Shown here: piece by piece, positions 25,528-41,498 of the stretch
Numbering within the stretch: the stretch's first letter is position 1
Layout: every line of letters starts with the position of its first letter
DNA from: a virus
Reading direction: 5' to 3' (one strand)
Virus record (IMG/VR): IMGVR_UViG_3300037584_001118
Span: 1 to 41,498 of that record
DNA: 41,498 bases
Program-made: the position numbers and the translations under genes
Notes under the pieces: model-generated
The model's database searches: none
What the model saw: only the letters and a program-made list of their open reading frames with translations
Told to the model about the DNA's origin: nothing

Positions 25528-25748
25528 TGAAAACAAAAGATCTAGAAACATTATTAGAAAACGAATACCCTTACGAACCACCAATAAGAGTTATGTCACA
25601 CAATGCAGATTGCGATGGCAATCATTCACACAACCCAATTATGACACCAGAAGCAGAAAGATTTAATGGCTGGGCAGCAATGCTTGGCTTCGTAGCAGCA
25701 CTAGGTGCCTACGTATCAACCGGTCAAATTATCCCCGGTATATTTTAA
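25527..25748 (+). CDS. hli: High-light-inducible protein (HLIP)
   Basis: A 73-residue protein whose last third carries the conserved single helix [20 protein letters not shown] followed by STGQIIPGI. The Glu, Asn and Gly residues are the chlorophyll-binding signature. The N-terminal half is a variable, polar extension with Asn and His. HLIPs protect photosystem II and bind chlorophyll in thylakoids. Placed between scaffold and psbA, as in P-SSP7-like phages, it is co-transcribed with structural genes yet acts during infection. Confidence 0.95.
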
Positions 25749-26827
25749 TGGCTGCAATCTCAGTAACCAGAGAAAGCAGTAATAATTGGCAGAAGTTTTG
25801 CGAGTGGGTAACAAGCACCAATAACCGTCTCTATGTGGGATGGTTTGGTGTGCTTATGATCCCTTGCTTACTGACAGCCGCTACATGTTTTTTACTCGCC
25901 TTTATCGCAGCACCACCTGTAGATATAGATGGCATACGTGAGCCCGTTTCCGGCTCGTTAATGTACGGGAACAATATTATATCTGGAGCAGTAGTTCCAA
26001 GCTCCAATGCAATAGGACTGCACTTTTACCCGATCTGGGAAGCCGGCTCTTTAGATGAGTGGTTATACAACGGCGGACCATATCAACTTATTGTCTTCCA
26101 CTTCTTAATAGGAGTAGCAGCTTATGCAGGTAGACAGTGGGAACTTTCATACAGACTAGGAATGAGACCATGGATATTTGTTGCATACACAGCCCCACTA
26201 TCCGCAGCTCTCGCAGTGTTCTTAGTTTACCCTTTCGGACAGGGGAGTTTTAGTGATGGCATGCCTCTTGGTATTTCTGGTACTTTTAACTTTATGTTCG
26301 TATTCCAAGCAGAACATAATATACTCATGCACCCATTCCATATGGCTGGTGTTGCTGGGGTATTCGGTGGATCTCTTTTCTCTGCTATGCACGGAAGTCT
26401 TGTTACTTCCTCACTTATTGCCGAAACGACAGAGGAGGTCTCGCAGAATTATGGCTATAAATTTGGGCAAGATGAAGAGACATATAATATTGTCGCTGCA
26501 CACGGGTACTTTGGGAGATTGATATTTCAATATGCTTCTTTCAATAATTCTCGTTCTCTACATTTCTTTCTTGCTGCTTTCCCAGTGGTTTGCATATGGC
26601 TTACCGCCATGGGAATCTGCACTATGGCTTTCAACCTTAATGGTTTCAATTTTAACCAGTCAATAGTTGATAGCAATGGAAAGGTAGTACCTACTTGGGC
26701 AGATGTAGTTAACAGAGCGAACCTCGGTTTTGAGGTAATGCACGAGCGTAACGCTCACAACTTCCCACTTGATTTAGCTTCTGCTGAGTCAACTCAAGTT
26801 GCACTTACAGCACCTTCAATAGGATGA
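25748..26827 (+). CDS. psbA: Photosystem II D1 reaction-centre protein
   Basis: A 359-residue, intact D1. Landmarks are [20 protein letters not shown] around TyrZ, the [20 protein letters not shown] region with chlorophyll and quinone ligands, [20 protein letters not shown] in the stromal loop, [20 protein letters not shown] for QB, and HNFPLDLA ahead of the C-terminal extension that host CtpA removes. Cyanophages express D1 to replace damaged host protein, keeping light reactions going. It starts on the hli stop and overlaps the next tiny gene. Codon use appears more host-like than its neighbours in places. Confidence 0.98.
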
Positions 26828-26946
26828 GCCATCAATCAGACAAAATGAGAGCAAGCATCACCAGCTATGCCTTCTATAAAGAAGAGAAAGAAGAGAAGAA
26901 AGAAACTGATAAAGAACTTTCTGACTCTGATAACACTAATAACTAA
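26824..26946 (+). CDS. 40-residue charged peptide after psbA
   Basis: ATG 26824 overlaps the psbA stop (ATGA), and the frame ends TAA 26944-26946. The peptide begins [20 protein letters not shown] and continues in a Glu/Lys-rich helix ending DSDNTNN. The coupling favours translation. It has no membrane segment and no family that I recognise. It may be a leftover of a host gene linked to psbA. Confidence 0.5.
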
Positions 26947-26987
26947 TATCTTTATCATGTCCGGGGTTACCCGACACTGGCAGCCAC

Positions 26988-27045
26988 GTCCGTTCATCCC
27001 CAATCAGGGGACGCATGAATCTTAGGCATGGAACGGGGTCTAAGT
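26988..27045 (+). ncRNA. Glutamine riboswitch candidate (Downstream-peptide / glnA type)
   Basis: P1 is CCGTTC (26990-26995) with GAACGG (27031-27036). P2 is CCCC (26998-27001) with GGGG (27007-27010), loop aatca. These are followed by GACGCATGAATC and the junction sequence TTAGGCATG. The order CGTTCA, P2, GACG..., GGAACG is that of the L-glutamine-binding Downstream-peptide/glnA RNA class known from Synechococcus, Prochlorococcus and cyanophages. That class precedes a short peptide gene, and one lies 15 bases downstream here. Recognition is by eye and memory. Confidence 0.7.
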
Positions 27046-27059
27046 ATATGGAGATAACC

Positions 27060-27113
27060 ATGAAAGTTACTTTCGTATATCGTGGCATTGCTTACACTAA
27101 GGTAATCGGTTAA
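27060..27113 (+). CDS. 17-residue peptide controlled by the riboswitch
   Basis: ATG 27060, preceded by GGAG at a good distance, to TAA 27111-27113. It encodes MKVTFVYRGIAYTKVIG. The YRG-x-x-Y core is typical of the short peptides that follow Downstream-peptide RNAs and of DUF4278. Glutamine sensing would therefore gate this peptide, not a metabolic enzyme. Its function is unknown. In cyanobacteria, related riboswitch-controlled small proteins (GIF/IF17 group) act on glutamine synthetase, but whether this one does is untested. Confidence 0.6.
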   Translation: MKVTFVYRGIAYTKVIG

Positions 27114-27300
27114 AGCCGACGAGGGAGGTGCGAAGCCTCCCATACCAATTTGGCTAAAGCCCTCTGAGGAGGATACCTTTAAGCCGTCGACGGTGGGAAA
27201 AGACCACAAAGCATGGCAGTCTCATGCTAGACCAATTAAGACTGACACAATTCTAACGTTAGGAACGACAATATATACTCTTACATTTTAAGAAAAAATC
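27114..27300. other. Structured spacer before the capsid gene
   Basis: This spacer holds a strong hairpin (GGGAGG 27123-27128 with CCTCCC 27136-27141), a CCGTCGACGG palindrome (27184-27193), an AGCATG/CATGCT hairpin and a CTAACGTTAG palindrome (27253-27262). None has a T-tract, so a terminator is unlikely. The core GTCGACGG occurs also near 7527 in the other non-coding region. The spacer probably carries promoter or RNA-processing signals for capsid mRNA. Confidence 0.45.
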
Positions 27301-28446
27301 ATGGCTCATCAGAGTTCAGATTTAACTACCTCGCTAACACGCCAAGGTCAGTTAAATTCATCCGGTGACGCACGTGCCCTTTACTTAAAATTGTTCTCAG
27401 GTGAGATGTTCAAAGGATTCCAGCATGAGTCAATAGCTCGTGACATGGTGATGAAGAGAACATTGAAGAATGGAAAATCTTTACAGTTTATCTACACAGG
27501 TAGAACAACTGCTGAGTTCCATACTCCCGGAAATTCAATTTTAGGTAACAGTGACGGCGCACCTCCAGTTGCAGAAAAAACAATAACTTGCGACGACCTA
27601 TTAATATCTAGTGCATTCGTATATGAGCTAGATGAGACACTTGCACATTATGAATTACGTGGTGAGATCTCTAAGAAGATCGGCTACGCATTAGCAGAGA
27701 AGTATGACAGACTCATCTTCAGAGCTATTACTAAAGGTGCAAGACAAGCTTCTCCAGTAGCTAAGACTAACTTCAAGGAGCCCGGTGGAACACAGATCAG
27801 AGTTGGTTCAACAACTAATGATTCTGATGCTTACAACGCAGGCAACTTAGTTAATGCTTTCTATGACGCAGCAGCAGCACTTGACGAAAAAGGAGTTTCT
27901 TCCTCTGGAAGATGCGCGGTTCTAAACCCTCGTCAATACTACAGTTTGATCCAAGACATCGGAACAAACGGACTTATCAATAGAGACGTACAAGGTACAG
28001 CATTACAGTCAGGTAATGGAATCATTGAAATTGCAGGCATCAAGATCTTCAAGTCAATGAACATCCCATTCCTAGCTAAGCATGGTGTAGCTTATGGCGG
28101 AACTACAGGTGAGACTTCTCCTTCAAACTTAGGAGACCACGTTGGTACAGCTCTAGCTGACGGACGTAAGTCTGTAACAGGACTAAACAACAACTACGGT
28201 AACAGCACAGACTTTGCTAAATCTTGTGGATTAATTTTCCAGAAGGAAGCAGCAGGGGTCGTAGAAGCTATCGGACCACAGGTTCAGGTAACTTCTGGTG
28301 ATGTATCAGTTGTTTACCAAGGTGACGTAATCCTTGGAAGATTAGCTATGGGTGCAGATTTCCTAAACCCAGCAGCAGCCGTTGAACTATATGTAGGCGC
28401 ATCAGCACCAACAGCGTTCGGTACAACATACCCAGAGAACGGTTAA
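27301..28446 (+). CDS. Major capsid protein (T7 gp10-like)
   Basis: A 381-residue HK97-fold capsid protein. It starts MAHQSSDLTTSLTRQGQLNS, followed by ALYLKLFSGEMFKGFQHESI (N-arm and E-loop region) and later ISSAFVYELDETLAHYELR. T7 gp10A is 345 residues. It forms the icosahedral shell. A leader with riboswitch and hairpins lies upstream, and a strong terminator lies just after it. Both fit a heavily and separately controlled gene. Confidence 0.95.
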   Translation: MAHQSSDLTTSLTRQGQLNSSGDARALYLKLFSGEMFKGFQHESIARDMVMKRTLKNGKSLQFIYTGRTTAEFHTPGNSILGNSDGAPPVAEKTITCDDLLISSAFVYELDETLAHYELRGEISKKIGYALAEKYDRLIFRAITKGARQASPVAKTNFKEPGGTQIRVGSTTNDSDAYNAGNLVNAFYDAAAALDEKGVSSSGRCAVLNPRQYYSLIQDIGTNGLINRDVQGTALQSGNGIIEIAGIKIFKSMNIPFLAKHGVAYGGTTGETSPSNLGDHVGTALADGRKSVTGLNNNYGNSTDFAKSCGLIFQKEAAGVVEAIGPQVQVTSGDVSVVYQGDVILGRLAMGADFLNPAAAVELYVGASAPTAFGTTYPENG

Positions 28447-40372: not shown

Positions 40373-41498
40373 ATGGCAACGACAACTAAAGAATATATAG
40401 GAGATGGTTCTAAAGGTATATCGGGACAAGCCCAATTAACTTTTACCTTTCCTGTTTTAAAAACTGAAGATATTAAAGTTTCACTTAACGGTAAAACTTT
40501 AGCGACAACTAAATACACATTCCCCACAGCCACATCCATCCAATTCGAGCCTATTACAGGCACACCAACAACATTTGAATCTAATACACAAGTACTTTCA
40601 GGTGCTCCAAAATCTGGAGTTAAGATTCTTATTTATAGAGATACAGATGTAGACACAGCTAAAGCTGTTTATTCGTCTGGTTCTTCTATTAGAGCAATAG
40701 ATTTAAACAATAATAAAGATCAGGATTTATATTTTGATCAGGAAGTTCAAGATTCTACAAACCCTAAAAACAAACCAGCATCTTTAAATGGTGCAGGTGC
40801 TCCAGACCAGGGGCTTGGTAAAGAAGGTGATGTTTATATTGATACGACTAATGATGCTATATATGGTCCTAAGACTAATGGTTCATGGGGTAGTGCTTCA
40901 ACATTAATTGGAGCTACAGGAGCTACAGGAGCTACAGGTCCTCAAGGTGCTACAGGTCCTCAAGGTGCTACAGGTAATACTGGAGCTACAGGTCCTCAAG
41001 GTCTCAAAGGTGATAAAGGAGACACTGGTGATACTGGATCTCAAGGTGCTCAAGGAAATCAAGGTATTCAAGGGGTTACAGGTACAGCTGCCACGATTGC
41101 AGTTGGGACAGTAACAACTGGTAATGCTGGAACAAATGTTTCTGTTACCAACAGTGGTACTTCATCAGCTGCAAGTTTTGATTTTTCTATTCCTAAAGGA
41201 GATACTGGAGCTCAAGGTATACAAGGTATACAAGGTATACAAGGTATTAAAGGAGATACTGGAGATACTGGACCACAAGGTCCTCAAGGTGCAACTGGTC
41301 CAACTGGTCCAGCTGCTAGTCCTAATTTTGGATCGCAGAATATAGTTACAACTGGAACTATTGCTTCCAGCGATATAACTATATCTGATGTAAGTCCAAG
41401 TCTTCGTTTTACTGAAAGTGATGCCAATCCTGATTATAAATTAGTAGTTAATAGTGGTAAATTTAGAGTTTATGATGAAACTAACGGTGCTGATAGAT
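40373..41498 (+). CDS. Second tail fibre, collagen-like, cut by the window end
   Basis: The frame from ATG 40373 stays open to the last base, giving 375 residues of a longer protein. Residues 1-130 resemble the T7 gp17 N-terminal domain, with [20 protein letters not shown] and [39 protein letters not shown] segment and then two collagen-like Gly-x-y blocks follow, with a beta-rich linker between. Trimeric collagen-like rods are common in phage fibres. It is a paralogue of the preceding fibre by its N-terminus, so both probably attach to the same tail. Confidence 0.88.
40910..40972 (+). repeat. Tandem repeats encoding collagen-like Gly-x-y (first block)
   Basis: Nine-base units ggagctaca occur three times (40910-40936), followed by two exact copies of an 18-base unit, ggtcctcaaggtgctaca. 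They encode Gly-Ala-Thr and Gly-Pro-Gln repeats. Such repeats can change length by slippage. Confidence 0.85.
41213..41248 (+). repeat. Four tandem 9-base units in the second collagen-like block
   Basis: The unit caaggtata occurs three times in exact tandem, followed by caaggtatt. It encodes Gln-Gly-Ile repeats in the fibre. Near-identical copies at the DNA level suggest recent expansion. Confidence 0.9.

Follow-up and report, generated by a model that had tools for sequence, protein, structure and literature searches.

Marine cyanopodoviruses are abundant, and the question addressed here is how they time capsid production and read the nitrogen status of their hosts. It is raised by a short spacer in a 41,498-nucleotide stretch of viral DNA (hereafter, the window), in which an earlier note, written from the letters alone, had placed a glutamine riboswitch and a 17-residue peptide between psbA and the capsid gene. 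The virus is a T7-like cyanophage with a single-subunit RNA polymerase, a T7-type capsid assembly protein, psbA and a Gp10A-like capsid protein, and its closest isolate by leader DNA comparison is P-GSP1. The parts of the leader and its two flanking genes lie on the plus strand. The upstream neighbor of the spacer is psbA, encoding photosystem II D1 (25748-26827; Pfam PF00124, E 1e-86), and downstream lies the gene for the Gp10A-like major capsid protein (MCP; 27301-28446; Pfam PF21703, E 5e-75). On balance, and by a modest measure of confidence, we read the intervening stretch as a three-module capsid leader made up of a riboswitch with its peptide, a tRNA-like fold and a stem-loop element.

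Three further observations concern the genomes themselves. In the window, a small Lys/Glu-rich ORF (26825-26947) overlaps the psbA stop and is kept upstream of the riboswitch in close relatives, and a tail-region ORF contains a collagen-like stretch, a long run of a 9-base Gly-X-Y codon repeat (40892-41305). One contig labelled as an Actinomycetota MAG (L214, PBPX01000064.1) carries psbA, a Gp10A-like capsid gene, the riboswitch and the stem-loop element; it is therefore a cyanopodovirus contig, and its label reflects a binning error or contamination.

A Glutamine-II riboswitch and a conserved YRG peptide follow psbA

Scanning the whole window with Rfam cmscan returned a sole match at the gathering threshold, to the Downstream-peptide or Glutamine-II family (RF01704), at 26988-27045 (53.8 bits versus a cut-off of 33, E 2e-10). 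The match begins at exactly the position that had been given by eye, and the P1 (26997-27001/27007-27011) and P2 (27021-27025/27040-27044) pairings are those of the Rfam alignment, which also places a pseudoknot between CGUUC (26991-26995) and GAACG (27031-27035). The earlier note had suggested a check with both the Downstream-peptide and glnA models and had named the class as Downstream-peptide/glnA; only the first of these names holds. Since the glnA model (Glutamine, RF01739) scored 17.8 bits, below its cut-off of 35, while RF01704 scored well above its own, the aptamer is Glutamine-II and not glnA. In the Glutamine-II crystal structure, C1, G18, C39 and G40 hold the glutamine, whose site is formed by G2 and C19 (PMC6698751), and the equivalents of C1, G2, G18, C19, C39 and G40 in that numbering are all present in the window (26991, 26992, 27013, 27014, 27034 and 27035, respectively).

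The same family was found above the cut-off in 15 of 20 related IMG/VR contigs and in the isolates P-SSP7, P-SSP2, P-GSP1, NATL1A-7, S-RIP2 and S-TIP37, and was absent from Syn5 and S-CBP2 in the Rfam scan; its recurrence in related contigs and isolates excludes a chance match. A consensus scan of loci yielded 124 phage copies, while the exact riboswitch pattern, searched among genome contigs, matched in two podovirus contigs only. The proposal of a podoviral glutamine riboswitch between psbA and the capsid gene is thus borne out, and the arrangement is conserved among related phages. In 100 loci the riboswitch has psbA upstream of it, the gene often ending 9-20 bases from the aptamer, so the riboswitch is probably transcribed and read as part of a message containing psbA. 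Judged by its sequence, this is a predicted glutamine-sensing RNA of known kind, resembling host Yfr6 mRNAs.

Five nucleotides past the aptamer lies a Shine-Dalgarno sequence (GGAG, 27050-27053) that ends 6 bases before the ATG of a 17-residue ORF, MKVTFVYRGIAYTKVIG (27060-27113, stop TAA at 27111-27113). A second ATG in the same frame, at 27048, runs into the Shine-Dalgarno sequence and is not kept in relatives such as L041, L045 and L093, which makes the ATG at 27060 the likely start. The small YRG peptide noticed earlier just downstream of the aptamer proved to be a regular companion of it: a YRG ORF, 13-79 residues long, follows the riboswitch in 124/124 loci of the consensus scan. Phage YRG ORFs occur in a short form, as in the window, and in a long form with an N-terminal helix-like segment (MxxxELQARxxEQ...LKYRGxxY). 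Across 73 distinct nucleotide windows the Y, R, G and second Y are invariant and pN/pS is 0.46 (dN/dS about 0.28), a pattern that points to purifying selection on the peptide. The window peptide has no match to DUF4278 (PF14105), and longer phage relatives score 13.5-21.4 bits against it, below the Pfam cut-off of 25.3, making DUF4278 a possible distant relative of the longer phage peptides. Taken together, we regard the riboswitch and the peptide as real with near certainty. In three loci (L213 from 4320, L214 from 2956 and L203 from 2505), the riboswitch and peptide are followed directly by a gene with a secretion-signal-like start (MKKIALALAATSFASAPAFAG), and gp222 of NATL1A-7 is a gene of this type in the same position.

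The peptide ORF ends within a probable tRNA-like fold

A tRNA-like structure without a D-arm (27101-27146) draws its 5' half from the last codons and the stop of the peptide. It consists of an acceptor-like stem (27101-27104/27143-27146), a hairpin whose loop contains the peptide stop codon (27106-27110/27115-27119) and a T-arm-like hairpin (27123-27128/27136-27141) with the T-loop UGCGAAG (27129-27135). The unconstrained minimum-free-energy fold of the window sequence comprises exactly the acceptor stem, the stop hairpin, the T-arm and the capsid-leader element described below, with a z-score of -3.64 for a 55-nt tRNA-like segment.

Support for the acceptor stem came from a locus-by-locus helix search combined with permutation. 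Among 46 distinct non-tRNA leaders, the acceptor helix had a mean score of 5.11, compared with 3.98 when 3' strands were redistributed (maximum shuffle 4.41, 0/2000), and the hairpin between acceptor and T-arm paired at 3.41 versus 2.76 in shuffles (0/2000); these permutations leave some relatedness among the leaders in place. More than 12 types of acceptor partners were observed, including GAGUA/UACUC, GAAUA/UAUUC, GGUAA/UUACC, GAUAA/UUAUC, GUAAA/UUUAC, AACUGA/UCAGUU, AAGUGA/UCACUU, AGUGA/UCACU, GGCAAG/CUUGCC and GACUG/CAGUC. RNAalifold recovered the T-arm alone from a mixed 16-sequence alignment, as groups differ by one base in the register of the acceptor. The T-loop is 7 nt long and reads UUCRANN or UGCRANN in nearly all leaders of the T-arm class. 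In all 38 peptide-bearing leaders of this class the ORF ends inside the fold, with the acceptor 5' strand formed by the last codons or the stop, and by the count from the first hairpin scorer the stop codon lies in the hairpin loop in 23 of these 38. Compensatory changes thus preserve a fold whose 5' half is coding sequence.

The fold has the hallmarks of a tRNA-like structure, namely an acceptor-like stem that closes on a T-arm and a T-loop of 7 nt, with covariation in support, and that it exists we consider very probable. It is not a functional tRNA, since 27090-27215 of the window has no Rfam match at E<=10, ARAGORN makes no call in the P-SSP7 leader (L202), and the U55 position in these folds is often G. 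Upstream ORFs other than the peptide also overlap the fold (L003, L136, L152). In the predicted fold of the more distant P60, a near cloverleaf, the 'anticodon' hairpin holds the scaffold-gene stop codon, and that of Syn5 has an acceptor stem, T-arm and P1/P2-like element; each comes from a single sequence whose fold energy is ordinary relative to shuffles.

A conserved RNA element precedes the capsid gene

When the intergenic regions were aligned, conservation was highest not in the riboswitch but in a segment at 27148-27210, which is also present in contigs that lack the riboswitch. This element begins 5 nt past the tRNA-like fold in the window and 2-7 nt past it in relatives. Its architecture comprises a stem P1 (27152-27159/27177-27185) enclosing P2 (27161-27164/27169-27172) with a YNMG-type tetraloop, an asymmetric C/AYAC internal loop (AUAC bulge at 27173-27176 in the window), a palindrome (GUCGAC, 27186-27191) and a hairpin P4 (27193-27196/27204-27207). 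The palindrome keeps its form through sequence change (GUCGAC, GUCUAGAC, GUCAUGAC and GUAAUUAC, generalized as GUC(UA)GAC).

The covariation score of the element was 0.293 compared with 0.068 in shuffles, and 98.9% versus 85.1% of pairing cells were paired (0/500 shuffles; slid controls fail), values whose absolute size is biased by an alignment fitted to the structure. This bias does not touch the P2 types, which were read directly from sequence and include CCUC/GAGG, CCG/CGG, CUG/CAG, CAG/CUG, CGG/CCG and UGC/GCA, among others. A pattern scan of all viral contigs that was blind to the capsid gene recovered the element again, 50-108 nt before the capsid ORF in 162 of 165 phage loci, with the other three at contig ends.

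The covariance model built for the element (R1) gives 60 bits and one match in the window, and no Rfam family corresponds to the element at E<=10. R1 has no match in S-CBP2 or in the pelagiphage HTVC109P and matches weakly in P60 and Syn5; it does not cleanly reach more distant cyanopodoviruses. A repeated phage promoter or T7-like late promoter was rejected as an identity for the element, which is single-copy, both with up to 3 mismatches allowed and by model, and covaries as RNA. A search of the leader for an intrinsic terminator found none. We hold the reality of the capsid-leader element to be as good as certain. Between it and the capsid start, a second hairpin-like segment around CTAACGTTAG (27252-27270) was seen in the leader alignment; this segment and its variants are palindromic in related leaders despite changing sequence.

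A possible link between the riboswitch and the capsid mRNA

The earlier note had offered a choice between a short effector peptide and the capsid mRNA as the target of the sensor, a choice that the aptamer itself does not settle. In NATL1A-7 (1.2 kb) and several contigs, 0.8-1.6 kb containing other genes separates the riboswitch and peptide from the capsid gene downstream, from which it follows that the riboswitch primarily serves to switch the peptide. Where they directly abut the capsid leader, as in the window and about 50 relatives, the end of the ORF within the tRNA-like fold would offer a concrete route to the capsid mRNA that the earlier note had not seen.

Glutamine-II riboswitches are ON switches, probably acting at translation (PMC6698751). 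When glutamine is high, the 17-residue YRG peptide would be translated, and ribosomes terminating on the acceptor strand and stop hairpin would hold the tRNA-like fold open; a terminating ribosome must occupy both of these segments, so that translation of the peptide and tRNA-like folding should be mutually exclusive. In the absence of ribosomes, the fold could form and present a tRNA-type processing signal to enzymes of the RNase Z or RNase P family, both of which cyanobacteria possess (PMC10989914). Cleavage there would leave the stable stem of the new element at the 5' end of the capsid mRNA, where it may protect the message against RNase E, which rises during P-SSP7 infection, when phage transcripts are thought to need protection (PMC9692554).

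By virtue of this mutual exclusion, host glutamine status could gate capsid-mRNA maturation in addition to peptide level. We put such gating forward only tentatively, and likewise doubt, without dismissing it, the specific version in which low glutamine lets host tRNA-maturation enzymes cut the fold, as a metabolite-gated tRNA mimic, and so set the 5' end of the capsid mRNA. On sequence grounds, the effect on capsid output could run in either direction. As a whole, the three-module leader with tRNA-type processing and glutamine gating is the best explanation of the locus that we can offer, and one to which we lean slightly.

What speaks most strongly against coupling is the separability of the modules, together with the fact that the fold also takes in the ends of other ORFs, such that the overlap may be a by-product of compact packing. 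This is the core of a simpler account, somewhat improbable in our judgment, in which the riboswitch controls the YRG peptide only and the peptide acts in trans on host nitrogen physiology, as host Yfr6-type peptides presumably do, while the fold and the element form an independent capsid leader. It draws on the constant pairing of riboswitch and peptide, even far from the capsid leader in several phages, on the selection that keeps YRG..Y unchanged, and on ORFs, including the P60 scaffold gene, that end in the fold where there is no riboswitch. Genome compaction alone, however, sits less easily with about 48 leaders that place the end of the riboswitch ORF exactly in the tRNA-like fold, and with compensatory changes that preserve pairing across a coding strand.

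Exchange of structures upstream of the element

Directly 5' of the element, 72 leaders carry the T-arm-like hairpin and 66 an unrelated hairpin with the loop CACCUCARWGUCGGA. In four leaders of the T-arm class the T-arm is supplied by a genuine tRNA (tRNA-Gly(UCC) in NATL1A-7, L089 and L127, and tRNA-Leu in L080), the 3' end of which abuts the element; in NATL1A-7, the last base of the tRNA is 3811 and the first of the element match is 3810. Mapped onto a capsid tree of 128 sequences, leader type switches a minimum of 22 times, compared with 38-48 in label shuffles, a count that recombination and tree error can inflate. These repeated changes make the two hairpin types and the tRNA look interchangeable in this slot. 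About half of the leaders carry the other hairpin, and a tRNA-like signal is therefore not obligatory.

Several details of these leaders were also recorded. The 15-base loop of the alternative hairpin, which replaces the tRNA-like fold (class C; for example L204 2838-2873, L042 and L073), is near-invariant, and its GCACCUC is the reverse complement of a GAGGUGC found in many T-arms. Four loci (L099, L163, L156 and L190) have an extra GGC segment resembling the P1 5' strand just upstream (CCTGGCTCCT..TTGGCG), which is probably part of a class C hairpin. In the distant relative L080, an Rfam abiF RNA (47.8 bits, 2761-2797) is followed directly by the tRNA-Leu (2803-2874) and then by the capsid-leader element.

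T-loops are common docking motifs in structured RNAs, and the fold and element might accordingly work unprocessed, as one intact device that enhances translation, dimerizes through the GUC(UA)GAC palindrome or stabilizes the mRNA of the capsid cistron. The preservation of the palindrome through sequence change and the position of the element, always 50-108 nt ahead of the capsid start, speak for such a device, which we nonetheless think unlikely, as the replacement of the tRNA-like part by genuine tRNAs and by an unrelated hairpin, with the many type changes on the capsid tree, fits an exchangeable processing signal better than part of a fixed tertiary structure. By analogy with the genuine tRNAs in the same slot, which lend indirect support, we give roughly even weight to the tRNA-like fold being a processing signal. 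Finally, Downstream-peptide RNAs and short YRG ORFs occur in hosts (PMC2864571, PMC1242208), and psbA precedes the phage copy, but the idea of a functionless, drifting Yfr6-like host 5' UTR captured along with psbA is already disfavored to the point of being very improbable, given that several cyanopodovirus genera retain both aptamer and peptide, with binding nucleotides kept and the low dN/dS given above.

Comparison with known systems

Glutamine riboswitches are already known in cyanobacteria and marine myoviruses (PMC2864571, PMC9004378, PMC9964418). Cyanobacterial Downstream-peptide RNAs are followed by short ORFs of 17-100 amino acids (PMC2864571, PMC1242208, PMC2518516), and host Yfr6 RNAs, whose expression drops on nitrogen depletion, have the same layout (PMC1242208, PMC2864571). 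By covariance model (RF01704), the aptamer is common to the phage and to Yfr6 of Prochlorococcus, as is a short ORF within 15 nt. Unlike Yfr6, the phage copy is podoviral, lies by psbA and the capsid gene, and has its peptide end in a tRNA-like fold, a feature not described for host mRNAs in the literature consulted. Phage-encoded glutamine riboswitches are shared with Melnitz, Mosig and T4-like cyanophages (PMC9004378, PMC9964418, PMC9602691); that of Melnitz, however, is of a glnA-like class and was reported with a tmRNA gene, and the other marine phage cases are myoviruses, whereas the window is from a podovirus; in the literature consulted, none of them is placed in the capsid leader of a cyanopodovirus.

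With tRNA punctuation and the tRNA-like domain of tmRNA, the fold shares an acceptor-like stem stacked on a T-arm with a T-loop, as well as the genuine tRNAs in the slot of relatives. It differs from these signals in lacking a D-arm and CCA, in having a stop codon in place of an anticodon and in overlapping an ORF, and its processing is proposed here by likeness. In T7, RNase III sites and the phi10 promoter lie upstream of gene 10. The element shares with that leader its position before a T7-like capsid gene and a proposed role in leader processing, but it has neither sequence nor structural likeness to the RNase III sites or phi10 and is a single-copy, RNA-covarying element, not a repeated promoter.

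Within the open-access literature, we found no description of a glutamine riboswitch in cyanopodoviruses; subscription literature lay outside this scope, and an earlier description there is possible. In one comparative genomics study of these phages, riboswitches, tRNAs and intergenic elements go unmentioned (PMC4646655). Neither the capsid-leader element nor the tRNA-like fold overlapping an ORF appears to have been described in the same searchable literature.

These phages thus have an RNA element that is new to Rfam and that almost without exception precedes the capsid gene in related contigs, and they provide a case in which the stop codon of an ORF occupies the 'anticodon' loop of a fold resembling a tRNA. 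A glutamine sensor, a conserved micropeptide and the capsid mRNA are joined here by a proposed link that experiments can test directly. If the proposed processing is true, cyanopodoviruses of this kind would use tRNA-type punctuation in place of the RNase III processing of T7.
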